Shown here: positions 4,130 through 17,873 of the stretch, in pieces
Position numbering within the stretch: the stretch's first letter is position 1
Layout: each line of letters opens with the position of its first letter
Assembly: GCA_027486895.1 (NCBI GenBank)
Contig: JAIXOE010000033.1
Location: forward strand, 1-64,000
Direction of reading: 5' to 3'
Length of the DNA stretch: 64,000 nt
From: Sphingomonadales bacterium
GTDB taxonomy: Bacteria; Pseudomonadota; Alphaproteobacteria; Sphingomonadales; Sphingomonadaceae
Program-made: the position numbers and the translations under genes
The notes under the pieces: model-generated
The model's input: the letters and a program-made list of their open reading frames with translations, nothing else
Database searches by the model: none
What the model was told of the DNA's origin: nothing

Positions 4130-5782
4130 CTAGCTTGCGGGTGAATCCGTCGCGCTGTCCTTCGCCTCTTTCTCGTCGATAAGCTTTAATAACGCCAACG
4201 CCTTTTTCTGTTCGACCGATTCATGCGGCGAGTAAGCCAGCGGCCGCAGGGTACGGCGGGCCTCTGCAAAGCGAGCGCGTGCCATGAGTTCGCTGCCCAG
4301 CGTCAAGCGCGGAGCGTCAATTTGCGGGATGGTGTCAACGACTTGGGCGAGGCCGGCAACTGCAACCTCGGGCGCGCGCTTGCCTTCAGCGCCAAAGCTT
4401 TGGTGATAAAAATAGAGCGGTTCATGCGCTGGCGGGTTCGCGGCATTGGCTTTCAGCAGCCAAGCTCTTGCATCCTTGAACACGGCTTTTTTATCTGCGT
4501 CGGCTGCTGTGTCCGCCAGTCCCAAAAGCGCCTGCCCTTTGCGCAACATTGCCTCCCAATTGTCGGGTTGCAGTGCCAGCGCTTTATCGCTGCTCATCTG
4601 GCACGCGGCAAAATCCTTGGCCATGCATTCGGCATGCGCTTGCACCGTCCATGCGAGGCTATTGCCGGCATAAGCTGCGGTCTTGCTGCGCAATTTCTGC
4701 ATCCATTTGTCGCGGCTGGTCGTTTTCTCGCGATAATATGTGTCGAAATCCTTCTTCACCGGATATTCGGTTTCAGCGCGCACTTTGACCCACGCTTCAT
4801 ACTCATCTTTGGTGGAAATCCGCGCCAGCCGCTCCATGGTGATCCGGTCGTCGATAAAGTCCGCCTCCGCCAACGTAATCGGACGGATCACCGGTGCCTT
4901 TATGACTTCAGGCGGCAAGGGCGGTGTTTTGTATGGATAGCTGCCGCTGTCGACATAGATGCCGACTTCGCGGGTGAGATCATTGACGTCGCCGAAGATT
5001 TTCGCAGCTTCTGGATATTCTTGGCCTGCGTTGATCGCGCTCAGATAGGCTTTCAACTGGCCTTTGCGCTTTTCCGAGAAGGTCAGATAATGCGTTACCG
5101 CCCACGCATCGCCATAATCCCAATTTTCGGCGTCGCGACTTTCGTCGAGATAACGTCCGTCAACCATCTTGGCGGCCGGATAGCGCCTTGTGTAGCGCAA
5201 CTCGCCCTCGCGATGACGCGCTGGCTTGCCATAGGTGATGGCGCCCTCGCGTTCGAATGAAGCGGTCGAAATCAGCTCGGCAAAGCCTTCCACATACCAC
5301 GCGGGATAGGCTGCCGCCTGATATTGCAGCATGAAGTGGTGGGCATATTCGTGGAAGAGCACGAGTTCACCGGAGAATGTGCCGCTATTCCCTGCATCGC
5401 GCGGGATGACTGAAATCGGTCCTGCAAGTTGCGGATCATAATAGCCCGCCGCATCCGCGCTTGGGTCGCCAAGGAGCCGCTGAACATCGGCGACACTCGC
5501 GACCGAATACACCTTCACCTTGACGATATTGGCGTCGTCGGGCTCGCGCATATTGGTCGCGATTTTCAAAAGATAATGGATGGCCTCCAACCGGCCGGAC
5601 AGCCGCGCGAGCGATTTTTCATCGCCATCGCTGTAAATTTTGAAATGGTCGCTTTCGGCTTCTTTCCATTTGCTTTGCGCCTGCCCTGTGACGGTGATGG
5701 CTTGATCTTGGGCCAATGACGGTGAAGCCGCCAAAGTCATCGCGCTTAACATGGCAAAGCCACCAATCAGTATGCGTCCCAT
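4130..5782 (-). CDS. Exported HExxH metallopeptidase-like protein with TPR-like C-terminus
   Basis: A signal peptide ending SPSLAQ precedes about 525 residues. HEYAHH at 144-149 is an HExxH zinc motif, followed about 22 residues later by YVEGFAEL, which could give the third glutamate of a gluzincin peptidase. The C-terminal part has ALALQPDNWEAMLRKGQALL and similar helical pairs, consistent with degenerate TPRs. I do not recognise a named family and substrates are unknown. I chose the ATG at 5782 because GGGAG sits 5 nt upstream of it; an ATG at 5785 and a TTG at 5794 also exist. It follows queA by 61 bp. Confidence 0.85.
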   Translation of the reverse strand: MGRILIGGFAMLSAMTLAASPSLAQDQAITVTGQAQSKWKEAESDHFKIYSDGDEKSLARLSGRLEAIHYLLKIATNMREPDDANIVKVKVYSVASVADVQRLLGDPSADAAGYYDPQLAGPISVIPRDAGNSGTFSGELVLFHEYAHHFMLQYQAAAYPAWYVEGFAELISTASFEREGAITYGKPARHREGELRYTRRYPAAKMVDGRYLDESRDAENWDYGDAWAVTHYLTFSEKRKGQLKAYLSAINAGQEYPEAAKIFGDVNDLTREVGIYVDSGSYPYKTPPLPPEVIKAPVIRPITLAEADFIDDRITMERLARISTKDEYEAWVKVRAETEYPVKKDFDTYYREKTTSRDKWMQKLRSKTAAYAGNSLAWTVQAHAECMAKDFAACQMSSDKALALQPDNWEAMLRKGQALLGLADTAADADKKAVFKDARAWLLKANAANPPAHEPLYFYHQSFGAEGKRAPEVAVAGLAQVVDTIPQIDAPRLTLGSELMARARFAEARRTLRPLAYSPHESVEQKKALALLKLIDEKEAKDSATDSPAS

Positions 5783-5843
5783 CATCGCTCCCAAACAGAT
5801 TATGTTGGACGATGTATCGCCGCTAATTTTTGCGCGTCAAGCG

Positions 5844-6884
5844 CTATGCGTTCTGCGGCGGCAGTAAAAGACTGCTGTCGCCATAGCTGTAAAACCGGTA
5901 CTCTTCGGCGATTGCATGGGCATAAGCCGCTTGCATTGTCTCGCGGCCCATGAGCGCGCTTACCAGCATGAACAGGGTCGATTTGGGCAGATGGAAATTG
6001 GTCATCAGGCCGTTGATGGCCTTAAACCGATAGCCCGGCGTAATGAAGATATCGGTGTCGCCTTCAAACGGATGCACCACACCATTTTGGTCGGCGGCAC
6101 TCTCGACCAGGCGCAGCGAAGTTGTGCCAACGGCAATCAAGCGACCGCCATTCTCGCGAATACTGTTCAGACGATATGCTGTCTCGGCATCGATGCTGCC
6201 CCATTCGCTGTGCATGCGATGGCTTGCCGTATCGTCGACCTTGACCGGCAGGAATGTGCCCGCACCCACATGCAAGGTAAGCGTTGCCGTTTCAATGCCG
6301 GCATCCTGCACCGCTTGCATCAGTTCGGGCGTGAAATGTAGCGATGCAGTGGGCGCGGCAACGGCGCCGTCTTTTTGTGCGAACATCGTCTGATAATCTT
6401 CGGCGTCGCGCGCATCGGTCGGCCGCTTGCCCGCAATATAGGGCGGCAAGGGCATCGTGCCCGCGCGCTCCAGCAGCACTTCGACAGGCTCGTCCCCTTC
6501 AAAGAAGAGCGTGAAGCTGCCATCGGCGTGGCGGGCTTCAGCGTTCGCTATGACGCCTTGGCCAAAATCAACGCTGTCCCCGATATGCAGCCGCTTTGCA
6601 TTACGGATGAAGGCCTGCCAGCGGCGCAGATCTATGCGCTTGTGCAAAGTCGCACCAATTGTCGCGTCGCCCCTGCGGCCGGTCAGCTGCGCGGGTATGA
6701 CGCGCGTGTCGTTGAAGATCAGGCAATCACCCTTGCGTAAGCGTTGCGGCAGGTCGCTGACAGAGGCGTCGGCCATGTCGCCCGCGCCACCGACGCACAG
6801 CATCCGCGCCGAATCCCGCGGGCTAACGGGTCGCAACGCAATCCGCTCGGGCGGAAGCTCGAAATCAAACAGGTCTACGCGCAT
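5844..6884 (-). CDS. queA: tRNA preQ1(34) S-adenosylmethionine ribosyltransferase-isomerase QueA
   Basis: QueA transfers and isomerises the ribosyl group of S-adenosylmethionine onto 7-aminomethyl-7-deazaguanine in tRNA, the penultimate step to queuosine. The 346-aa protein has the family landmarks [43 protein letters not shown] and [20 protein letters not shown]. It is downstream of an exported cyclophilin gene by 16 bp, so the two are probably co-transcribed. The usual neighbour tgt is not in the window. Confidence 0.97.
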
Positions 6885-6900
6885 ATGATTGCCGAAGCGG

Positions 6901-7551
6901 TTAGCTGCCGCTTAGTTGATCTACGGTAATGGCTTTTTCGGCGGCGGGTTGCGCAGGAAAGGCGGGCGGCGGAACATTGTCCGCTGCAATCGACGCCTGC
7001 AGCACCTTGCTTGGGCTCGCTGGCGGTTCGCCACGTTCGATGGCGTCGACGAATTGCATGCCTGATGTTACGCGGCCAAAGACCGTATATTTATTGTCGA
7101 GACTAAAGCGCGGCTGAAAGCAGATGAAGAACTGGCTGTTGGCCGTGTCTGGCTCGTTCGTGCGCGCCATCGACACTGTTCCGCGCAAATGCGGCATTTT
7201 GTTAAACTCGGCTTTGAGATCGGGAAGCTCTGATCCGCCTTGGCCGGTACCCTGGGGATCGCCCGTCTGGGCCATGAATCCGTCAATCACTCGGTGAAAG
7301 ACGACGCCATTGTAAAAGCCCTGGCGAGTCAACGTCTTGATACGCTCAACATGTGCTGGCGCAACGGTGGGCAGCATCTGAATGGTCACGCGGCCGCCCG
7401 TCGACAAATCGAGCACCAGCATATTTTCAAGGTCTGGAGCGGTGGGGGCTGGAGCAGCAGGCGGCGTTTGCGCGATGGCTGGAGAGGCTGCGATGAACAG
7501 CCCGCCTAAAATAAGCGCAGTCAGCTTCGACAAAAATATGCGTGATAACAT
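6901..7551 (-). CDS. Exported cyclophilin-type peptidyl-prolyl isomerase
   Basis: After a signal peptide ([17 protein letters not shown]) and a Pro/Ala linker comes a cyclophilin domain with [20 protein letters not shown] and [20 protein letters not shown], including the Arg, Phe and Gln of the active site. It should catalyse proline cis-trans isomerisation during folding of periplasmic proteins. The C-terminus has a short Pro/Ala-rich tail. The ATG at 7551 was chosen; a TTG immediately upstream would add one residue. The closest downstream gene, queA, is unrelated in function but closely spaced. Confidence 0.93.
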
Positions 7552-7893: not shown

Positions 7894-10800
7894 GTGAAAA
7901 ACACACGTATCAGCAATTTGAAATATGCAGCGGCGCCGCTTGCACTGAGCTTGGCGTTGATCTCAACGCCGTCGTTCGCTCAGGACGCGGCACCTGAAGA
8001 TGAAGCGCCAGCCAGCGAAATCGTCGTTACTGGTTCGCTCATCCAAAATCCAAACCTCGTGCAGTCGACACCAGTCAACGCAACGACAGCTGAAGACATC
8101 GAGCTTTTGCAGTCGAACGTTGCTGAAGAAGTTCTGCGCGAATTGCCTGGCGTTGTTCCAAGCATCGGTTCGGCCGTGAACAACGGTAACGGCGGCGCAT
8201 CGTTCGTCGACCTTCGTGGCCTTGGCTCGACTCGTAACATCGTTCTGCTTGACGGCAACCGCATCGCGCCTTCCGGCCTTGCTGGTCGCGTCGACTTGAA
8301 CAACATCCCGCTTGCTCTGATCGAGCGTGCGGACGCACTGACCGGTGCCGCTGTGACCACTTATGGTGCAGATGCTATCACCGGTGTTGTCAACTTCATC
8401 ACCCGCAAGGATTTTGCTGGTCTCGAAGTTTCGGCTGCTACCCAGCTGACCGAAAAGGGCGACGGTAACACCAATCGCATCGACGCAACCATCGGCGCGA
8501 ATTTCGACGATGGCCGCGGTAACGCAGTATTGTCGATCGGTTATCAGCAGTCTGACGCTGTCTATCAGGGCGACCGTGACTTCTCGAAGGTGCAGATCAG
8601 CAGCTTCACCGGCGGCGCTGGTGGTTCGGGTACTTCGGTTCCATCGCGTTTCTCGGGCACACGTCCTTTGATCGCTGGCACCAGCACTCCAAGTACTGAC
8701 CCAGCCGTTGCAAACGGTGGCGTTCGTCAGATCAACGCTTCGGGCCAAGCTGTTCCAACGTTCCAGACGTTCAACTTCAACCCGTACAACGTGTTCCAGA
8801 CACCGTTCAAGCGCTTCAACATCTTTGCCCAGGGCAATTATGAAGTTTCCGACGCGGTCGAAGTATACACACGCGGCATGTTCTCCAAGAACACCGTTGA
8901 CACCATCATCGCACCTTCGGGTTCGTTTGGCGGCACCGTCACGATCAACTTGAACAACCCATATCTGCCTGCGACGCTTCGCAATCAGTTCTGCGCGTTC
9001 AACGTTGCAACCGTTGCTGGCACATACACACCGCGCTTCACACCTGCGCAATGTGCTGCTGCTGCAACTGCAACTGGCCGTACCGACGTCAACTATCGTG
9101 AAGTTACAGCGACTCTGAGCCGCCGTACCACTGAAGTTGGTCCACGTATCTCCAACTACCAAACGACAGTCTTTGATTATCGCATTGGTGCACGTGGCGG
9201 TATCACCGACAGCATCGATTGGGACCTCAGCGGTGCCTATGGTGAATCTGAAAACATTCAGACCATCAAGAACTACACGCTGCAGTCACGTTTCCGTGAA
9301 GCAACCTTGGCAAACAGCACAACGGCTTGCCAGAGCGGCAACTCGGCTTGTGTGCCAGTCAACATCTTTGGCCCAGAAGGCGCAATCACGCCAGCTATGG
9401 CGAAGTTCCTGACTGCCAACTCGTCGACAGTCGTTCGTACGACTTTGGCACAGGTTCGCGGCACAGTTTCGGGTGATGCTGGTATTGCTTCGCCATTCGC
9501 TGTTGAACAGGTTGGTTTCGCCGTCGGTGGAGAGTATCGCAAATATGGTGCAACCCAGGCGTCCGATCTGCTTGCGCAGACGCCAGGCGAACTCGGTGGT
9601 GCCGGTGGCGCTGCTCCAAACATCAATGGTGGATACGACGTGTATGAAGCCTTTGGCGAAATCATTGCGCCATTGGTTGAAGACAAGCCATTGTTCCACA
9701 GCCTGACAGCTGAAGCTGGCATTCGCTATTCCTCGTACACTGTACCAGGTGCAGCTACGCAGAACAAAACAACGACTTGGAAAGCTGGCGGAAGCTGGGA
9801 GCCTGTTGAATCGCTCAAGATTCGCGGTAACTACAGCCGTGCCGTCCGTGCGCCAAATATCAGCGAATTGTTCACACCACAGACTGTTGGCTTGACCAAC
9901 CTGGGTACGGACCGTTGCGCCGGTGCCGCTCCTGTAACTGATGCTAACCTTCGTGCAGTTTGTATTGCTCAAGGCGCGCCAGCAGGATCGATCGGTTCGA
10001 TTTTGCCACCGACCGCTGGTCAGGCAAACATCACCGTTGGTGGTAACTTGAACCTGCAGCCAGAAAAGGCAAACACCTGGACCCTTGGTGCAGTGTTCCA
10101 GCCTGACTTCTTGCCAGGTTTCAACATGTCGCTTGATTATTACAACATCAAGATTTCGAACGTGATTGGCACTGCATTGCCAGGTGACATCGTCGCTGCA
10201 TGCTTTGGTAACATTACGGCGGCAAGTGCAACGGATACTGCTTGCACAAGCATTCGTCGTAACCCGATCACTGGCGGCCTTGACGGTGACCCAGCGACAA
10301 CCGGTGGTCTTTTCGGCCCAACCAACAACCTCGGCAAGTTGGCAACAGACGGTTTCGACCTTCTCGCTAACTGGAAGGGCGACATTGGCTTCGCTGATTT
10401 GTCACTTGCTTTCGTCGGCAACTGGACACGTTCGTCGAAGTTCAATGCTAACCCAGCTGACGCTGCTTCACTGAACCGTGAATGCGTTGGTTACTACTCG
10501 GTCAACTGTTCGTTCACTGGCTCCATTCAGCCAGAGTTCCAGACCACAACACGTGCGACGTTCGGTATCAAAGATATCGACCTTTCGTTCTTGTGGCGCT
10601 GGATTGACACTGTGAACTACGAACCACAGGCGATCATCGAAGACGGTGGCGACGCTAACTCGGTCTTGCCGCAGTTCCGTTCGATCCCTGCTGAACATTA
10701 CTTCGACTTCACTGGTCGTTGGAAGGCTACCGAGAACTTCTCGTTCACCTTCACTGTTCAGAACCTGCTTGATAACAAGCCAAAGGTTGTCGGTAACACG

Positions 10801-10896
10801 ATCGGTTCGACCAGCTTCAACAGCGGTAACGTCTTCCCGTCGACATACGACGCGCTGGGCCGCCGCTTTGGTGTTGCAGCGAAGCTGACTTTCTAA
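7894..10896 (+). CDS. TonB-dependent outer-membrane receptor
   Basis: The 1000-aa receptor imports an unidentified ligand across the outer membrane using TonB energy. A signal peptide ends at about residue 29 (STPSFAQ). The EIVVTGSL segment (42-49) is the usual sphingomonad N-terminal motif. A plug domain follows with VLRELPGVVPSIG, VDLRGLGSTRNIVLLDGNR and TTYGADAITGVVNF. The rest is a beta-barrel ending in phenylalanine (AAKLTF). The GTG at 7894 has AGGGG 7 nt upstream and gives a clean signal peptide; a GTG at 7816 would add a non-signal extension. Codon use is unlike the neighbours (many CCA, GCT, GGT, CGT codons), suggesting high expression. A terminator follows. The sulfotransferase and hydroxylase genes lie just downstream. 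Confidence 0.95.
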   Translation: MKNTRISNLKYAAAPLALSLALISTPSFAQDAAPEDEAPASEIVVTGSLIQNPNLVQSTPVNATTAEDIELLQSNVAEEVLRELPGVVPSIGSAVNNGNGGASFVDLRGLGSTRNIVLLDGNRIAPSGLAGRVDLNNIPLALIERADALTGAAVTTYGADAITGVVNFITRKDFAGLEVSAATQLTEKGDGNTNRIDATIGANFDDGRGNAVLSIGYQQSDAVYQGDRDFSKVQISSFTGGAGGSGTSVPSRFSGTRPLIAGTSTPSTDPAVANGGVRQINASGQAVPTFQTFNFNPYNVFQTPFKRFNIFAQGNYEVSDAVEVYTRGMFSKNTVDTIIAPSGSFGGTVTINLNNPYLPATLRNQFCAFNVATVAGTYTPRFTPAQCAAAATATGRTDVNYREVTATLSRRTTEVGPRISNYQTTVFDYRIGARGGITDSIDWDLSGAYGESENIQTIKNYTLQSRFREATLANSTTACQSGNSACVPVNIFGPEGAITPAMAKFLTANSSTVVRTTLAQVRGTVSGDAGIASPFAVEQVGFAVGGEYRKYGATQASDLLAQTPGELGGAGGAAPNINGGYDVYEAFGEIIAPLVEDKPLFHSLTAEAGIRYSSYTVPGAATQNKTTTWKAGGSWEPVESLKIRGNYSRAVRAPNISELFTPQTVGLTNLGTDRCAGAAPVTDANLRAVCIAQGAPAGSIGSILPPTAGQANITVGGNLNLQPEKANTWTLGAVFQPDFLPGFNMSLDYYNIKISNVIGTALPGDIVAACFGNITAASATDTACTSIRRNPITGGLDGDPATTGGLFGPTNNLGKLATDGFDLLANWKGDIGFADLSLAFVGNWTRSSKFNANPADAASLNRECVGYYSVNCSFTGSIQPEFQTTTRATFGIKDIDLSFLWRWIDTVNYEPQAIIEDGGDANSVLPQFRSIPAEHYFDFTGRWKATENFSFTFTVQNLLDNKPKVVGNTIGSTSFNSGNVFPSTYDALGRRFGVAAKLTF

Positions 10897-10922
10897 TCAG
10901 CTAAGCACGTATAAGTTTGAAG

Positions 10923-10955
10923 GGGGCGGGCAGCGATGTCCGCCCCTTTTCTTTT
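10923..10955 (+). terminator. Intrinsic terminator of the TonB receptor gene
   Basis: A 9-bp GC-rich stem (10923-10931 with 10938-10946, one G-U pair) with a 6-nt loop is followed by TTTTCTTTT. It starts 26 bp after the receptor stop codon. Confidence 0.85.
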
Positions 10956-10968
10956 GGCAACCGGCAGC

Positions 10969-10998
10969 TTGACAATCCGGCACACTTTGTCGCTAGTC
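10969..10998 (+). promoter_or_regulatory. Candidate promoter for the TPR-sulfotransferase gene
   Basis: A perfect TTGACA (10969-10974) is followed after 17-18 bp by GCTAGT/CTAGTC (10992-10998). It sits directly after the receptor terminator. A transcript would start near 11004, which coincides with the proposed GTG start, so the mRNA could be leaderless. The -10 match is weak. Confidence 0.4.
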
Positions 10999-11003
10999 GC
11001 TAT

Positions 11004-12593
11004 GTGACCAGTCCAGATCTCGACCTTGCCGCAGCCCAATCGCAGGCCGCCATTACCGCCGGAACTGGCGATGCCTACGACCACGCTATCGTCGCGCTGG
11101 CGCTGTCGGCACAAGGCGACTTTGCTCGGGCCGACACCCTTTTCCAACGCGCACTAGAGCTCGAGCCGGGCAATCCATCCACCTTGACCAGTCTGGCCAT
11201 CCATTACCGCAACCAAAGCCGGTTCCGCGATGCCGTGTTGGCCTGTGATGAGGCAATACGACATTATCCCGATTATCCTGACGCTTGGCTTGAGCGCGGG
11301 GCGATATTGGCGTCCGGCGGGTCCAACGAAGGCGCGCGTGCCAGCTTTACAAAAGCCGCCGAATTGGCCCCGCAACATCCCGCCGCTTATGCCGGATTGG
11401 CGGCGCTGGCGGCCCGTGAAGGGCGTCACGAAGACGCGCGACATCAGGCGGCGGCCGCACTGAAGCTGGACCCGCAAAACGCCGTGGCGAGCAATGCACT
11501 TGCCAGCGCGGAATTGGCCGAAGGGCGACCAGCCGCAGCCCGTGACTTACTTGAGCCGCTTGTTGCCCGCCTCAATGTAGCCAGTCTTGAACGCAGCCTC
11601 GCCTATTCCACGCTGGCAGGCGCGTATGACAAGCAATTCGAACATGCTGCCGCTTTTGCCCATTATGAACGCGCCAATGCCGACTTTGTCGCTATCCATG
11701 AAGGAGCCGGGGCCGACCATTTGGACAACACAAGCTTTGTTGAGGCTATAGCCGAGGGGCTTGCTGCCACACCAGTGGATGCATGGCGAACGCCGATTGC
11801 GGCTCAACCTGCAAATGCTGCGGCGCGGCATATCTTTTTAATCGGCTATCCCCGCTCGGGAACAACTTTGGTTGAAAATATTCTGGCGTCGTTGGCTGGA
11901 GTGTCTGCGCTTGAGGAGCGCCCAACCTTGGCCATGACTGACCAAGCGTACATCGGGGGTAATCGCGACGGCATTATCGAAGGTATCCGTGGCTTTGCGG
12001 CACTTGATACGGACGGACTTGACCAGCATCGGCAGGCCTACTGGGACAAGGTAGTCGCCGCAGGGGTGCCTGCAAGCGCGCCTTGCTTTGTGGATATGGA
12101 CCCGTTGAAGGGCACACGCCTTCCGTTTATCGCGCGTCTTTTCCCCGACGCACGCATTCTGGTGATGCGCCGCGACCCACGCGATGTGGTTTGGAGCTGC
12201 TTTCGCACCAATTTCGCCATGAGCAGCGGCACGCTGGAATATACCAGCCTTATACGCGCAGCCCGCCATTATGATGCGTTGATGCGCTTGACCGAACTGG
12301 CGCTCGAACGCTTGCCTGTTCAATATCATATCGTCCAATATCACAAGATCGTGCAGGATTTCGACGCCGAAAGCGCTGCTATGTGCGCGTTTGCCAGGCT
12401 GGAATGGAATGAAACTGTGCGTGATTTCGACAGGACAGCGAAACGCCGCGGCGTGACCACCGCAAGTGCGGGGCAAGTCCATCGCGGGCTCTATGACGGC
12501 ACCAAGCAATGGCAGCCTTATGCCAAATTTCTGGAGCCCGTCCTGCCCATCCTGCAACCGTGGATCGACAAATTCGGTTACACCGAACTATAG
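11004..12593 (+). CDS. TPR-repeat sulfotransferase family protein
   Basis: The protein has two parts. Residues about 10-220 are tetratricopeptide repeats (for example LFQRALELEPGNPSTLTSLA and ACDEAIRHYPDYPDAWLERG). From about residue 275 there is a sulfotransferase domain with the PAPS 5'-phosphosulfate loop FLIGYPRSGTTLVENILASL and a 3'-phosphate-binding-like RILVMRRDPRDVVWSCF. It should transfer sulfate from PAPS to an unknown acceptor, perhaps a protein captured by the TPRs. The open frame extends upstream to 10917, but that part lies in the receptor terminator. I therefore prefer the GTG at 11004, which lacks a Shine-Dalgarno sequence. The stop overlaps the convergent next gene by 6 bp. 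Confidence 0.87.
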   Translation: MTSPDLDLAAAQSQAAITAGTGDAYDHAIVALALSAQGDFARADTLFQRALELEPGNPSTLTSLAIHYRNQSRFRDAVLACDEAIRHYPDYPDAWLERGAILASGGSNEGARASFTKAAELAPQHPAAYAGLAALAAREGRHEDARHQAAAALKLDPQNAVASNALASAELAEGRPAAARDLLEPLVARLNVASLERSLAYSTLAGAYDKQFEHAAAFAHYERANADFVAIHEGAGADHLDNTSFVEAIAEGLAATPVDAWRTPIAAQPANAAARHIFLIGYPRSGTTLVENILASLAGVSALEERPTLAMTDQAYIGGNRDGIIEGIRGFAALDTDGLDQHRQAYWDKVVAAGVPASAPCFVDMDPLKGTRLPFIARLFPDARILVMRRDPRDVVWSCFRTNFAMSSGTLEYTSLIRAARHYDALMRLTELALERLPVQYHIVQYHKIVQDFDAESAAMCAFARLEWNETVRDFDRTAKRRGVTTASAGQVHRGLYDGTKQWQPYAKFLEPVLPILQPWIDKFGYTEL

Positions 12594-13607
12594 CAAGCGG
12601 GCTGGCAAATGGAGTGGGACGCCCGCAGTTTCTGCTACCGCCTTTGCCCAAACCAGAACCTTTTCAATTTCGTCACCATAAGCTTCGGCTGCGGCCTTAT
12701 GTTCGGCTGCGCGGTCGTTCGAGTCGAACGCACCGCCGAATTTGCTGTGCGTCGCAAATGCGGGATGTCCTGAAATGTTGTCTTGATGCGCCTCAAGTCC
12801 GAAATGTTTTGTGGCAGACGTCAGCGCAGCCTCTGGGTTCACGGTCAGCGTTTCACTGTCCAGCGTCGCAATGCGCGCAGGACCGAATGTGCCAACCATG
12901 GCATTAAAATGCCGCTGCTGCGCTATCCAGCCAACGGCAGCCACTTGCAGGTCGGACATCCGAAAATAATCGCCGGGCTCGAAACCAAGGTTCGTCATCA
13001 TGCCGTCGGTGATGAGGCCCTCAAGCAATTCGCGACACCATAGACGGCACCACAGGCCCTTGCGCGCGACGGAAATCAAAAAAACCGGCAGCGGGGCATA
13101 TAGCAATATCGCCTTGCTGGTGGGCCGCATGGTGAGCGCCAGCGGCGCAAGCGCATTGAACACGTTCGACGGCTTCACCACGACTGCCCGATCGCCTTTG
13201 AATGGCCGTGCGAGCATATGAAGGCTATGGTCAAGCCGCTCGGCCACCGCAGCGGGCGGGGCGCCGCGCCGACGCCAACCGACAATATCGTTGAGCAGGA
13301 CTGGCTCCTTCAAGCCCATGGACACACCGGGAAGATTGAAACCCCGGGCCAGCATAGTCGAAGCACAAAACGCGGAATGCAGGATGAAGTGCAGGGGGTT
13401 CGTCTTCGCAACCTGCTTCATGGCCTCGTTGCGGCCGACGATGAATGGATTAGCGTCCACGCCCAGATATTCGTCGGTGATAAATGTAGCGGCATCATGC
13501 TGGTTACGGTCGAGTTGCCGCAGATGAAAGCTGTCGGCATCCTCGTCGTACCGATGCGTAAGCCATTCACCATATGCTAATATATTTTCGAGACGCTGTT
13601 CTGCCAT
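12588..13607 (-). CDS. Sulfotransferase-like protein of unknown substrate
   Basis: The 339-aa protein is not confidently assigned. Residues 73-90 (HFILHSAFCASTMLARGF) resemble the strand-loop-helix of sulfotransferases that binds PAPS, and the following GLKEP fits the family layout. The loop is degenerate, with AFCAST instead of the usual RSGTT. The C-terminal part (FDSNDRAAEHKAAAEAYGDEI) is helical and charged. The ATG at 13607 is preferred over a TTG at 13646. It lies between a TPR-sulfotransferase (convergent, 6-bp overlap) and a TPR-hydroxylase (divergent), so a role in the same modification pathway is inferred. Confidence 0.75.
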   Translation of the reverse strand: MAEQRLENILAYGEWLTHRYDEDADSFHLRQLDRNQHDAATFITDEYLGVDANPFIVGRNEAMKQVAKTNPLHFILHSAFCASTMLARGFNLPGVSMGLKEPVLLNDIVGWRRRGAPPAAVAERLDHSLHMLARPFKGDRAVVVKPSNVFNALAPLALTMRPTSKAILLYAPLPVFLISVARKGLWCRLWCRELLEGLITDGMMTNLGFEPGDYFRMSDLQVAAVGWIAQQRHFNAMVGTFGPARIATLDSETLTVNPEAALTSATKHFGLEAHQDNISGHPAFATHSKFGGAFDSNDRAAEHKAAAEAYGDEIEKVLVWAKAVAETAGVPLHLPARLL

Positions 13608-13639
13608 GATCCAGCAGACCTTGCCGTTTGTCCCGCTAA

Positions 13640-14842
13640 ATGGCAAGCATAGCCGTCATGGATCAAAATGCACCACCCGCCGAAGCCGCCCGTTTAAACA
13701 GTCAGGGAATGCTCGCATTGCGTGCAGGCAGCTTCGCTGAGGCCGAAAGGCTATTCCTAGAGGCCACACAACATGACAAAAGCGCAGGCGCATTGTGGCG
13801 CAATGTTGCCACCGCACGCCGTGCACAGCGCGATGACGCTGGCGAGCTACACGCGCTGAATGCAGCAATCGATGCAGATCGGCGCGATTTTATGGCATGG
13901 TTGCGTAAGGCGGAACTACATCAGCGCCGGCAGGAAGATGCAGATGCTGTCGCCGCGTGGCAGGGGGTTTTACAACTTGCCGCGCAGTCGGATGATTTGC
14001 CCCCTGAACTCAGTCAGGCATTGCGCAATGGGCAAGCATTTGTTGATCAAGCCGTGGCCCGTATCTCCCATGCCGTAGAAACCCAAGTCGCATCAATCCA
14101 GGCTGCAATGGATGAAACCGAACGCCGCCGCAGCGCCGCTTTTGTAGATGTCGCCTTGGGCCGGCGCCCTATTTATTCCAACCAATGCGAAGGCTTATGT
14201 TATCCGTTTTTGCCAGCGGACGAGTTTTTTGATCGGCGGCATTTTGACTGGATGCCGCAGATTGAGGCGGCAACCCCGGACATCCGCCGCGAGCTTGAGG
14301 CGTTGCTTGCTGACCCGGGCGAAGCGCTGCGCCCTTATGTCCGAATGGAAAAGGGACTTCCCGAAAATGTCTGGACCAACCTTGACCAATCGCTCGATTG
14401 GGGCGCTTGTTTCTTGTGGGAATATGGCAATCCCAATAATGTGGTACTTGACCGATGCCCCAAAACAGCAGCGGCATTGGCGGCTTTGCCATCCGCACAT
14501 ATCCCCGGCCGGTCACCAAGCGCATTTTTTTCGCTGTTGAAACCCCGGACCCGAATTCCGCCGCATACGGGCGTGACCAATACGCGGGCCATCGTCCATT
14601 TGCCGTTGATAGTTCCCGATAGCTGCGGCTTCAGGGTTGGCGGCGAAACACGGTTGTGGCGTGAGGGTGAGGCATTTGCGTTTGATGACACCATTGAGCA
14701 TGAGGCGTGGAACGACAGTGATGAACTGCGCGCGGTTTTGATATTCGATGTATGGAACCCGCATCTGACGCTGGCAGAGCAAGAATTGATCACGCAATAT
14801 TTTGCAGCGGCGGATAGCACAGGTCTTAATCCTGTAATATGA
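13640..14842 (+). CDS. TPR-repeat aspartyl/asparaginyl beta-hydroxylase family protein
   Basis: The N-terminal 130 residues are TPR-like (LNSQGMLALRAGSFAEAERL, AALWRNVATARRAQ-type pairs). The C-terminal part is an Asp/Asn beta-hydroxylase domain of the 2-oxoglutarate/Fe(II) oxygenases: PPHTGVTNTRAIVHLPL, DTIEHEAWN and RAVLIFDVWNP. His309 and His354 are spaced like the two iron-binding histidines of AspH, which lacks the usual acidic ligand. The enzyme should hydroxylate Asp or Asn side chains in a protein or peptide. An in-frame ATG at 13658 is a possible alternative start. Its upstream region is shared with the divergent sulfotransferase-like gene. Confidence 0.88.
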   Translation: MASIAVMDQNAPPAEAARLNSQGMLALRAGSFAEAERLFLEATQHDKSAGALWRNVATARRAQRDDAGELHALNAAIDADRRDFMAWLRKAELHQRRQEDADAVAAWQGVLQLAAQSDDLPPELSQALRNGQAFVDQAVARISHAVETQVASIQAAMDETERRRSAAFVDVALGRRPIYSNQCEGLCYPFLPADEFFDRRHFDWMPQIEAATPDIRRELEALLADPGEALRPYVRMEKGLPENVWTNLDQSLDWGACFLWEYGNPNNVVLDRCPKTAAALAALPSAHIPGRSPSAFFSLLKPRTRIPPHTGVTNTRAIVHLPLIVPDSCGFRVGGETRLWREGEAFAFDDTIEHEAWNDSDELRAVLIFDVWNPHLTLAEQELITQYFAAADSTGLNPVI

Positions 14843-14935
14843 TGTTGATTTCATACGATAATTATCAACTTTAGATTATTGTGAGAATGTAAAAGTCGTG
14901 ATACTTCTATGTCATCACCCCCAAAGGAACAGAAT

Positions 14936-15220
14936 ATGCGTGTATTTATTTTGGCCATTGCGCTGACTACTTCATTGTCAGCAGCTCCAGTCATTGCAGG
15001 CAATGAGAATGCAAAGCCGGTGAAAACGGCATCTGCCGATCCAGATCAGGCGATCAAGTGCCGCAAGGTGGAAGTTACGGGTTCACTTGTCAAAAAAGGC
15101 AAGGTTTGCAAAACTATCGCGGAATGGAAAGAAATCCAGGCCAATGGTAATCGCACTGCGCGAGCTATCATCGAGAGCGGTGCGATATGCTCTGGCGGTA
15201 CGTGCGGTAACGGGAACTAG
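14936..15220 (+). CDS. Small exported four-cysteine protein with a VTGS motif
   Basis: A signal peptide (LAIALTTSLSAAPVIA) is followed by about 73 residues with Cys at 42, 58, 85 and 90. The segment CRKVEVTGSLVKKGKVCKT carries VTGSL, the same string found near the mature N-terminus of the TonB receptor 7 kb upstream. WKEIQANGNRTARAIIES follows, and the tail is CSGGTCGNGN. Small proteins with a C...VTGS...VC.T..EW pattern occur in sphingomonads, but I know no function. The ATG at 14936 has AAAGGAAC upstream; an ATG at 14909 would spoil the signal peptide. Expression from its own promoter is likely, since 93 bp precede it. Confidence 0.8.
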   Translation: MRVFILAIALTTSLSAAPVIAGNENAKPVKTASADPDQAIKCRKVEVTGSLVKKGKVCKTIAEWKEIQANGNRTARAIIESGAICSGGTCGNGN

Positions 15221-15296: not shown

Positions 15297-17873
15297 TCAC
15301 ACCTTGAATTTCAAAGCGCCGTCGCCTTCGTCGATCAAAACTGTTGATCCGTCGGGTATTTCCCCGCGCAGCAATTGGTCCGCCAGCGGGTCTTGCAAAT
15401 AGCGCTGGATTGCACGCTTCAGCGGCCGCGCGCCGTAGACTGGATCATAACCCACGCGGCCAAGCCAGGCCTTCGCCTCTTCGGACAGCGCGAGGGTAAT
15501 CTTGCGGTCCTTGAGCAGCTTCTGCACGCGCTGCACCTGAATTTCGACAATCGGCGCCATGTGATCGGCGCCAAGGCGGTGGAACAGGATGACCTCATCG
15601 AGCCGGTTAAGGAATTCGGGACGGAAATGGCCACGCACGATTTCCATGACTTGCGGCTCGACCTCTTTGACATCCTGACCATCCTCAAGTCCCGCGAGAT
15701 ACTGGCTGCCAAGGTTCGACGTTAAGATGATGAGCGTGTTCGAAAAGTCGACGGTGCGGCCTTGGCCATCGGTCAGGCGGCCATCGTCGAGCACCTGAAG
15801 CAGGATGTTGAAGACATCGGAATGCGCTTTTTCGACTTCGTCGAACAACACGACCTGATAGGGCCGACGCCGCACGGCCTCGGTCAGAACGCCGCCCTCT
15901 TCATATCCGACATATCCCGGAGGCGCACCGACCAGTCGCGAAACGCTGTGCTTTTCCATGAATTCAGACATATCGATGCGGACCATCGCATTGTCATCAT
16001 CGAACAGGAATGACGCCAGCGCCTTCGTCAGTTCAGTTTTACCAACGCCCGTTGGGCCAAGGAACAGGAACGAGCCAAGCGGCCTGTTCGGGTCCTGAAG
16101 CCCTGCGCGGCTCCGACGGACCGCCTTGGACACGGCTTCCACGGCATCTTTTTGGCCAATAACGCGCGCGCCAATAAGCTGCTCCATATTCAGCAATTTA
16201 TCTCGCTCGCCCTCAAGCATCTTGTCGACGGGAATGCCGGTCCATCGGCTCACGACGCTGGCGATATCCTGCGCAGTCACTTCCTCGCGCAACATGGCGT
16301 TGCCTGCTGCGCCTTCGGCTTCAGCCAATTGCTTTTCGAGTCCCGGAATGGCCCCATATTGCAGCTCGCCTGCCTTGGCGAGGTCGCCCGAACGTTGCGC
16401 CTGCTCAAGCTCAATGCGCGCGGTATCTAGCTGTTCCTTGATCTTGGCCTCTGCCGAAATCTTGTCTTTTTCCGCTTGCCAGCGCTGCGTGAGTTCGGAC
16501 GATTGCTGCTCCAGATTGGCAAGTTCATTCTCAAGAGCAGCAAGCCGGTCCTTGGATGCCACATCGCTTTCCTTACCAAGCGCCTCACGCTCGATTTTGA
16601 GCTGGATGATACGCCGGTCAAGCGTCTCGATTTCTTCGGGCTTCGACTCCACCTCCATGCGCAACCGCGACGCGGCTTCGTCCATTAGGTCGATGGCTTT
16701 ATCGGGCAGGAAACGGTCGGCAATGTAGCGGTGCGATAAAGTCGCTGCGCTCACCAGCGCGCTGTCGGTAATCCGCACGCCATGGTGCAGCTCATATTTC
16801 TCTTTCAGACCCCGCAGAATTGAAATGGTATCTTCGACAGTGGGCTCGCCGACGAACACGGGTTGAAACCGGCGTTGAAGGGCAGGGTCCTTCTCGACAT
16901 GCTTCTGATATTCATCGAGCGTAGTTGCGCCAATGCAATGCAATTCGCCGCGCGACAATGCTGGCTTGATGAGGTTGGCGGCGTCCATCGCGCCTTCGCC
17001 TTTGCCCGCGCCAACCAGCGTGTGCATTTCATCGATGAACAGGATGATGTCACCTTCGGCCTGCTTCACTTCATCGAGCACGCCCTTTAGCCGCTCTTCG
17101 AATTCGCCGCGATATTTCGCGCCGGCAATCAATGCGCCCATGTCGAGCGAGAGTAACTTACGGTTTTTCAAACTGTCTGGCACGTCGCCATTGGCGATCC
17201 GCAGCGCTAGACCTTCGGCAATCGCGGTTTTGCCGACGCCGGGTTCGCCGATGAGAACAGGGTTATTTTTGGTCCGGCGCGCCAAAATCTGGATCGTGCG
17301 GCGAATTTCCTCGTCGCGCCCAATGACGGGGTCAAGCTTGCCCGCGCGGGCGACCTCAGTCAGGTCACGCGCGAATTTCTTCAGCGCATCATAACGGTCT
17401 TCGGCGCCAGCGGTGTCGGCGGAACGACCACCACGCAGCGCATTAATCGCAGCGTTCAGGCCTTCAGCAGTGACAGCAGCGGCAGCCAAGGCCTTACCGG
17501 CGGATGTGCTCGTTGCCAAAGCAAGCGCAAGCAACAGCCGCTCAACGGTCACGTAGCTGTCACCTGCCTTTTGCGCGACCTGTTCAGCGGAATCGAGAAC
17601 GCGTACGGCGTCATTATCAAGCCCGGGTGTCTGCTGCGCGCCGCCGCCGGAAACCGCAGGAACCTTGGCAAGCGCCGCATCGGTCTCGCGCAATGCAGTC
17701 GCGGCGTCGCCCCCTGCGGCCTTGATGAGACCCGAGGCCATGCCTTGCTCATCCTCAAGCAACGCTTTGAGAAGATGCTCAGGCCCAATGCGCTGATGGC
17801 TCATGCGAATGGCTACGGTCTGCGCGCTTTGCAGAAAACCCTTGGCCCGGTCGGTGAATTTCTCAAGGTTCAT
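15297..17873 (-). CDS. clpB: ATP-dependent disaggregase ClpB
   Basis: The 858-aa Hsp100 chaperone extracts polypeptides from aggregates together with DnaK. It has the N-terminal ClpN repeats, a first AAA+ domain with [15 protein letters not shown] and [12 protein letters not shown], and the long coiled-coil middle domain ([20 protein letters not shown]). The second AAA+ domain has [15 protein letters not shown] and [11 protein letters not shown]. The length is normal and no ClpP-binding loop is expected. The 112 bp upstream probably hold a heat-shock promoter, but I could not identify a clear sigma-32 site. Confidence 0.98.

Follow-up and report, generated by a model that had tools for sequence, protein, structure and literature searches.

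CUT and PUL loci are TonB-receptor gene clusters. OGT is a protein-modifying enzyme fused to tetratricopeptide repeats (TPR), and the hydroxylases OlsC and LpxO belong to family PF05118 and are without a TPR part. The locus described here joins a TonB receptor to a TPR-containing member of PF05118 and to sulfotransferase-type proteins. It lies in a 64,000-nucleotide stretch of DNA from a Sphingomonadales bacterium (GenBank assembly GCA_027486895.1, contig JAIXOE010000033.1, positions 1 to 64,000, forward strand), the whole of which is called the window below. The original prediction, made from the letters of this DNA, named five genes, and all five are present by open reading frame (ORF) calls and Pfam scan. 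They encode a TonB-dependent receptor (TBDR, 7894..10896, plus strand); a protein with TPR repeats and a Sulfotransfer_3 domain with an intact 5' loop for 3'-phosphoadenosine-5'-phosphosulfate (PAPS) (ST1, 10917..12593, plus strand); a protein of predicted sulfotransferase fold without the Lys/Arg of that loop (ST2, 12588..13646, minus strand, probable ATG start at 13607); a protein with TPR repeats and an Asp/Asn beta-hydroxylase domain in which the iron and 2-oxoglutarate (2OG) residues are kept (ASPH, 13640..14842, plus strand); and a small, putatively exported protein of 94 aa (SEC94, 14936..15220, plus strand). The usual downstream neighbor, clpB (15297..17873, minus strand), is a landmark outside the proposed function.

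Conservation of gene neighborhoods was assessed from relatives of ASPH. A pattern-based scan of one genome per species (84,980 species) gave 454 confirmed relatives, and the best 80 loci were kept. Sixteen of these were dropped because they lacked 6 kb upstream or 3.5 kb downstream, leaving 64 full-flank loci. A receptor, counted if it scored more than 300 bits within 6.5 kb of ASPH, is present in 58 of the 64 loci, ST2 in 55, and SEC94 in 52; all three occur together in 49. The order TBDR-[ST1]-ST2-ASPH-SEC94 is kept across sphingomonads, usually adjoining clpB. Conservation of the neighborhood beyond chance is confirmed, and TBDR, ST2, ASPH, and SEC94 very probably form a functional unit. 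One genome that carries the cassette is that of the laboratory sphingomonad Sphingobium sp. SYK-6 (L022). A survey for co-occurrence of four families beside TonB receptors had been proposed, and co-occurrence is strong for ST2, ASPH, and SEC94; ST1 is an accessory member of the module, with an ortholog in 6/64 full-flank loci (9/80 of all loci) and any TPR-sulfotransferase in 10/64.

Slowly evolving gene order beside clpB, with no functional linkage, could produce a similar picture. The clpB gene is common to 45/64 full-flank loci, and inherited order therefore explains part of the signal. This explanation is nevertheless very improbable as an account of the whole, because the gene set is kept when the locus is split, clpB is out of reach in 12 of the 55 loci that carry ST2, AspH accompanies the same receptor clade elsewhere too, and ten short sulfotransferases of the order have no receptor nearby. 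Six full-flank loci have no receptor above threshold near ASPH (L018, L020, L059, L068, L079, and L082); L059, scored as receptor-less, has a different receptor (249 bits) about 0.7 kb downstream of ASPH. Receptors were searched genome-wide in these six genomes and in that of L081; L050 and L072 served as positive controls. A receptor 58-66% identical to that of the window was found elsewhere in 7/7 genomes whose ASPH locus is receptor-less. In the genomes of L068, L081, and L082, clpB, ST2, and the receptor are still adjacent and only ASPH is apart, while no ST2 was found beside the distant receptor in the L079 genome. As far as genomes were checked, those with a split locus have kept the set of genes.

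The receptor (1000 aa, with a GTG start that is common to its orthologs) has Pfam matches for barrel (107.8 bits) and plug (66.4 bits), a signal peptide by eye, and the TonB-box region EIVVTGSLIQNPN, so that plug, barrel, and TonB-box region are all present. The alignment of its N-terminal region with BtuB starts at residue 5 of the BtuB chain in the solved structure. None of 19 NCBIfam receptor subfamilies reached its own cut-off; the best was BtuB (113.3 vs 836 bits). Strong codon bias had been noted for this gene, and its effective number of codons (39.9) is indeed the lowest of nine local genes, but two neighbors are close behind (42.5 and 42.9). The bias suggests that the receptor is probably made in quantity.

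A tree was built from 94 receptors, comprising 15 chosen from the ASPH locus type, that of the window, 27 others of the window's genome, and those of loci fetched through AspH or sulfotransferase matches. All receptors from ASPH loci (31/31) fall in one 36-row clade (support 98), and those beside a sulfotransferase-profile match only fall mostly (22/29) in another 25-row clade (support 100). The eight receptors accompanied by ST1 all belong to one 28-row clade (8/8). The sulfotransferase label in this tree means a match to the ST1 profile at 60 bits, which catches TPR parts too; L178 and L186, so labeled, proved to be 2OG-FeII_Oxy_5 proteins. Enzyme loci were picked for their enzymes, and the tree therefore shows which receptors are accompanied by enzymes and not how frequent enzymes are per receptor of a clade. 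At other loci, receptors of the ASPH-associated clade are partnered by TPR proteins with 2OG-FeII_Oxy_5 domains (L178, L185, L186, L187, L224, L225, and L227), by a 2OG-FeII_Oxy_3 protein with a weak Sel1 match (L181), and by TPR-sulfotransferases (L184, L225, and L227 by Pfam; L224 by profile). The pattern that recurs is a receptor of one clade next to a 2OG oxygenase or sulfotransferase that is fused to repeats.

Receptor and enzymes of the window have different affinities. In the window, ASPH and ST2 cluster with Sphingorhabdus-like loci and the receptor with Sphingopyxis. Forcing the receptor to group with four Sphingorhabdus-like receptors was rejected by the approximately unbiased (AU) test (p 4e-6), as was forcing ASPH or ST2 to group with four Sphingopyxis rows (AU p 2e-7 and 3e-8, respectively). 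By these tree tests, the receptor has been exchanged in one lineage or the other, with ST2 and ASPH remaining stable beside it.

ASPH scores 143.7 bits against PF05118 (cut-off 22.6), and its closest solved protein is human AspH (E 3e-28). Residues H309, H354, S298, R316, H320, and R364 are invariant in 33 sequences aligned to human AspH; by the roles of the human residues we take these to be the iron- and 2OG-binding positions, and the two histidines, H309 and H354, are those predicted as iron ligands. An engineered TPR protein matches residues 23-149 (E 1e-16), and Pfam TPR models are below cut-off (18.6 vs 27). The predicted function of ASPH is hydroxylation of Asp/Asn in a protein. The enzyme might instead hydroxylate a lipid, as OlsC does with ornithine lipid and LpxO with lipid A, in which case receptor adjacency would reflect a general envelope function. 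The NCBIfam models of both do match ASPH (OlsC 90.1 bits, LpxO 47.2 bits), but neither reaches its cut-off (450 and 500 bits), both scores being far under it, and the closest solved protein is a protein hydroxylase, human AspH. Six AspH ORFs of lipid-hydroxylase length (260-345 aa) also bear on this: five have no receptor nearby (L169, L171, L172, L176, and L182), and at L175 the receptor is 2.4 kb away. A lipid substrate is very unlikely on this evidence.

A subset of AspH genes is tied to receptors, but AspH genes in general are not. Matches to PF05118 are present in 31 of 60 genomes of the order; 47 matches were listed and 40 regions fetched, 16 of which contain a receptor. Among AspH ORFs of at least 350 aa, 12/25 have a receptor in the fetched stretch. 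The window's genome has three PF05118 genes, and the two outside the window have ordinary metabolic neighbors; 14 kb was read around each of these two and contained no receptor. A short AspH occurs together with a TPR-sulfotransferase and a receptor at L206-L208. Beside these genes, L207 and L208 also carry genes of about 310 aa (4827-5753 and 6156-7088, respectively), and the L207 protein has no Pfam match.

ST1 matches Sulfotransfer_3 with 101.5 bits (cut-off 27), and the closest solved relatives of its catalytic domain are protein-tyrosine sulfotransferases (TPST; E 5e-9). GYPRSG (310-315) and RDPRD...S (419-427) are invariant in nine sequences, which bears out the prediction of an intact PAPS loop; from the known roles of such motifs, we take the first to be the 5' PAPS loop and the second the 3' phosphate motif. 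All three PF13469 genes of the window's genome (ST1, L001, and L002) are TPR-fused or have a matching length, and each lies next to a receptor gene. The two other PF13469 genes of this genome are located at G000:C37:4053-6134 and G000:C3:95837-97441. In the order as a whole, TPR-length sulfotransferase loci with 1.5 kb flanks (L119-L148) show a receptor in 10/30. When longer stretches were read for 15 receptor-less loci of these 30 and for five further matches, a receptor was found within about 430 bases in 20/20; five of the 30 loci were not extended, one of which (L136) is L001 of the window's genome. Lower-scoring sulfotransferases of the order have a receptor within about 2.3 kb in 5/10. 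Short ones (<450 aa, taken as TPR-less by length; two on short contigs) have a receptor in 0/10 fetched stretches.

ST2 has no Pfam family up to E 10. By profile it has no link to ST1, and its only match in PDB profiles is weak (E 0.49). A Foldseek search with its AlphaFold model (pLDDT 93.6) gave 16 matches at E <= 0.001 (TMq 0.37-0.45); every one of them is described as a sulfotransferase, the nearest being the curacin-pathway sulfotransferase domain and then tyrosylprotein sulfotransferases. Judged by this model, ST2 is built on the sulfotransferase fold while failing the family's sequence tests. An alignment of 35 sequences (that of the window and 34 of 65 found in the loci) has an invariant loop, HSAxCxST, without the Lys/Arg of the PAPS loop. 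At the second motif, A171 (90% or more), P172, and S179 (invariant) replace the Arg-led motif, the equivalence being by eye. A sulfotransferase-like protein with a degenerate loop had been expected here, and both basic PAPS motifs are in fact gone; ST2 is probably without standard PAPS use. E101 and K145 are invariant in the 35 sequences and may correspond to TPST catalytic residues, as judged by eye from the motifs of that family.

SEC94 has an export signal by eye and is predicted to form a hairpin followed by a helix. In the low-confidence model (pLDDT 69.5, pTM 0.41), strands 40-47 and 53-60 pair and place C42 opposite C58. An exported protein with four cysteines had been proposed; length and signal hold, but only two cysteines belong to the residues invariant in 26 members (C42, G49, S50, C58, T60, and W64), the other two of the window protein being unconserved. 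Two further SEC94-like genes are present in the window's genome (E 2e-25 and 2e-8), and the surrounding sequence that was read, 14 and 12 kb, respectively, has no match to a receptor or to the enzymes. The close paralog at G000:C3:65631-65870 has the same CRKVEVTGSL motif and no receptor or enzyme matches in the surrounding 14 kb. The SEC94 hairpin VTGSLV (14936-15220) resembles the receptor TonB-box VVTGSLI (7894-8060). A role for SEC94 as a TonB-box mimic was considered and rejected: receptors have [IV]VTG[ST]LI and SEC94 has xGSL, in which the T is not kept (46 TGSL and 34 IGSL among 112 SEC94 ORFs).

SEC94 could itself be the protein that is hydroxylated or sulfated in the cytoplasm, then acting in the periplasm or outside. 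Eukaryotic AspH acts on disulfide-rich domains, one to four SEC94 copies lie downstream of ASPH, and SEC94 co-occurs with ST2 (both in 52 of the 64 loci, ST2 only in three, SEC94 only in none, and neither in nine). At L018, L020, and L059, where no receptor of the clade is encoded locally, SEC94 still accompanies ST2 and ASPH. Several observations make such a role improbable. No Asp, Asn, or Tyr is invariant in the 26 aligned members, ASPH has no nearby SEC94 in 12/64 loci, and SEC94 has 0/9 matches at non-orthologous TPR-length AspH loci beside receptors (L173, L178, L179, L181, L184-L187, and L192). The co-variation with ST2 comes down to about three events.

Between receptor and clpB, the window contains ST1, ST2, ASPH, and SEC94 only, and no inner-membrane transporter, hydrolase, or regulator. 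ST1 starts 21 bases after the receptor ends; ST1 and ST2 are tail-to-tail with a 6-base overlap, and the 5' end of ST2 faces ASPH (a divergent pair). A polypeptide substrate is favored by the TPR-enzyme architecture, by the human AspH and TPST relatives, by the pairing with receptors of one clade, and by the gene content of the cassette, which is without transporter, hydrolase, or regulator. The receptor precursor would be the simplest candidate, because it is probably abundant, is cytoplasmic before export, and is the most constant partner. We therefore propose, tentatively, TPR-guided modification in the cytoplasm of a polypeptide tied to the receptor clade, most likely the receptor precursor. 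Cytoplasmic enzymes tied to this clade would bind the polypeptide through their TPR domains (TPR-AspH here; TPR-sulfotransferase in some lineages) and would modify its side chains before Sec export. ASPH would hydroxylate Asp/Asn, and ST1 would sulfate Tyr or another hydroxyl. ST2 would most likely be a scaffold or pseudoenzyme, or else a user of another donor, and SEC94 may be a periplasmic partner or second substrate. We infer the polypeptide nature of the substrate, the receptor as that substrate, its modification while still in the cytoplasm, and what ST2 and SEC94 do. A broader and more doubtful form of the proposal is that sphingomonads modify a TonB-receptor clade in the cytoplasm before export, by adjacent TPR-guided oxygenases (AspH and 2OG-FeII_Oxy_5) and sulfotransferases, which could adjust the receptor's choice of ligand or hide it from phages and bacteriocins.

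The serious competitor is the ligand. TonB receptors are commonly grouped with ligand-processing enzymes, and a small molecule or peptide imported by the receptor could be hydroxylated or sulfated by ASPH and ST1 for use, storage, or detoxification. The receptor is exchangeable, as expected if ligand choice varies, and related loci carry an M16 peptidase (L179), a major facilitator superfamily transporter (L181), and an S9 peptidase (L225); a GH20 hexosaminidase follows a receptor-sulfotransferase-AspH-SecB run in one other genome (L206, described below). Against this stand the cassette of the window, with none of the transport, hydrolysis, and regulatory genes named above, and the fusion of the enzymes to TPR as in human AspH, which modifies proteins. 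We consider a ligand substrate unlikely, though well within reason.

Returning to modification of the receptor precursor, a number of observations weigh against it. No export signal is evident by eye in ASPH, ST1, or ST2, though the receptor is exported. The window's genome has 34 plug matches and 30 receptors with loci, of which two are in the ASPH-associated clade, and one of these (L092) has no such enzyme nearby. The exchange of the receptor while ST2 and ASPH stayed means that the enzymes tolerate receptors only about 58% identical. Sulfation sites were sought as columns conserved in at least 7/8 ST1-bearing receptors and rare in 18 without ST1; the 29 such columns include three Tyr, compared to 26 of 530 conserved columns, which is no clear excess. 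(Neither this test nor the receptor tree includes the ST1 loci L048, whose receptor frame is split, and L056, whose receptor is partial.) ST1 needs three changes on the receptor tree and two on the ASPH tree, so the idea that ST1 follows the receptor rather than ASPH was dropped; since ST1 fits the receptor tree no better than the ASPH tree, the stated mechanism is weighed slightly lower. ST2 and SEC94 each need about three changes on the ASPH tree, and their co-variation has limited weight because only about three tree events are behind it. AspH ORFs of at least 350 aa are without a receptor in 13/25 fetched stretches, several of which are cut by contig ends. TPR-length sulfotransferases from outside the order have a receptor in 2/20, both in one genome, and none shown in 18/20. 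A rule that every TPR-sulfotransferase adjoins a receptor is rejected by this count; taken with the counts within the order, it indicates that the pairing is lineage-bound, belonging to sphingomonads and particular clades and not to the whole family. The original prediction that the locus may modify a protein or peptide is thus upheld in part: the neighborhood is conserved and a polypeptide substrate is favored, but there is no clear excess of Tyr sites and ST2 is probably without standard PAPS use.

SecB is an export chaperone for outer-membrane precursors. An operon-like run in genome G057 (L206, G057:C152, 832-7465) consists of a TBDR, a TPR-sulfotransferase, a short AspH, a second SecB, and a further sulfotransferase. 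Its receptor belongs to another clade than the receptors of ASPH loci. G057 is the only one of 60 genomes with two SecB matches, and 57 of the 58 SecB-matching genomes have one. A strict SecB search of 396 genomes, in which 128 reached the cut-off and copies may be missed, added G172, where the extra SecB adjoins hydantoinase- and acetone-carboxylase-like genes. The G057 run fits cytoplasmic handling of a precursor. It is a single case, which also counts on the unfavorable side: a second SecB as a general rule is rejected, having been found in such an operon once, and the GH20 hexosaminidase gene that follows the run fits a glycan ligand as well.

In the open-access literature (titles and starts of abstracts; subscription papers and preprints were outside this scope), no description of the receptor cassette was found. 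A paper on halotolerance (PMC10040529) has a table in which a lasso B2 protein, sulfotransferases, and an aspartyl beta-hydroxylase are placed in neighboring cluster numbers, and the passages covered discuss no receptor cassette. The cassette might, on such grounds, make or modify a lasso-type ribosomal peptide. At L205 (G005:C1:2783300-2795300), an AspH-family gene is found near an asparagine synthase and an HPr-kinase-like gene, an arrangement like that of lasso clusters, but this AspH is a weaker and shorter match (51 bits, 276-aa frame). The lasso B2 family PF13471 is unmatched in the window's genome, and there is no such gene in the locus. Lasso peptide biosynthesis is therefore the most remote of the alternatives. 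A reading of the locus as a defense system was also discarded, as a PADLOC scan gave no convincing match: ST1 matches only over its TPR part (E 2e-4 and 2e-3), and the other three proteins have none.

Elsewhere in the window, an Rfam scan gave one match, a tRNA at 34.4 kb, and at least as many promoter- or terminator-like matches occur in shuffled sequence as in the window. At 4130-5794, upstream of queA and a peptidyl-prolyl isomerase gene, a 554-aa protein with a weak match to a DUF1570/HEXXH metallopeptidase is encoded; it is 93% identical in L010.

Co-inheritance of a receptor with hydroxylating and sulfating enzyme types suggests chemical modification of the receptor or of a partner protein. 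If the receptor or a partner is the substrate, bacteria would have a hydroxylation/sulfation system dedicated to outer-membrane proteins, and AspH-type enzymes a natural class of bacterial substrates. Even with a ligand as substrate, the cassette is defined and widespread. ST2, now named, is a strongly conserved relative of sulfotransferases at the level of predicted fold, without the usual cofactor motifs.

The known systems share parts of this design. Like ASPH, human AspH has TPR repeats followed by an oxygenase domain, and the iron and 2OG residues of the two are aligned and conserved. Unlike human AspH, ASPH is bacterial, has no signal or membrane anchor by eye, and adjoins a TonB receptor. 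OlsC and LpxO are more distant, their NCBIfam models matching ASPH weakly and far under the curated cut-offs. Among sulfotransferases, TPST1/2 and the bacterial TPR-sulfotransferases of PF13469 are the nearest to ST1, which matches TPST by sequence, and TPST and the curacin-pathway sulfotransferase domain are nearest to the predicted fold of ST2. ST1 differs from TPST1/2 in its TPR domain and in showing no export signal by eye, and ST2 differs in being without both basic PAPS motifs. CUT and PUL clusters likewise group a TonB receptor with enzymes. Unlike these clusters, the cassette is without transporter, hydrolase, and regulator, and its enzymes are of families that modify side chains.

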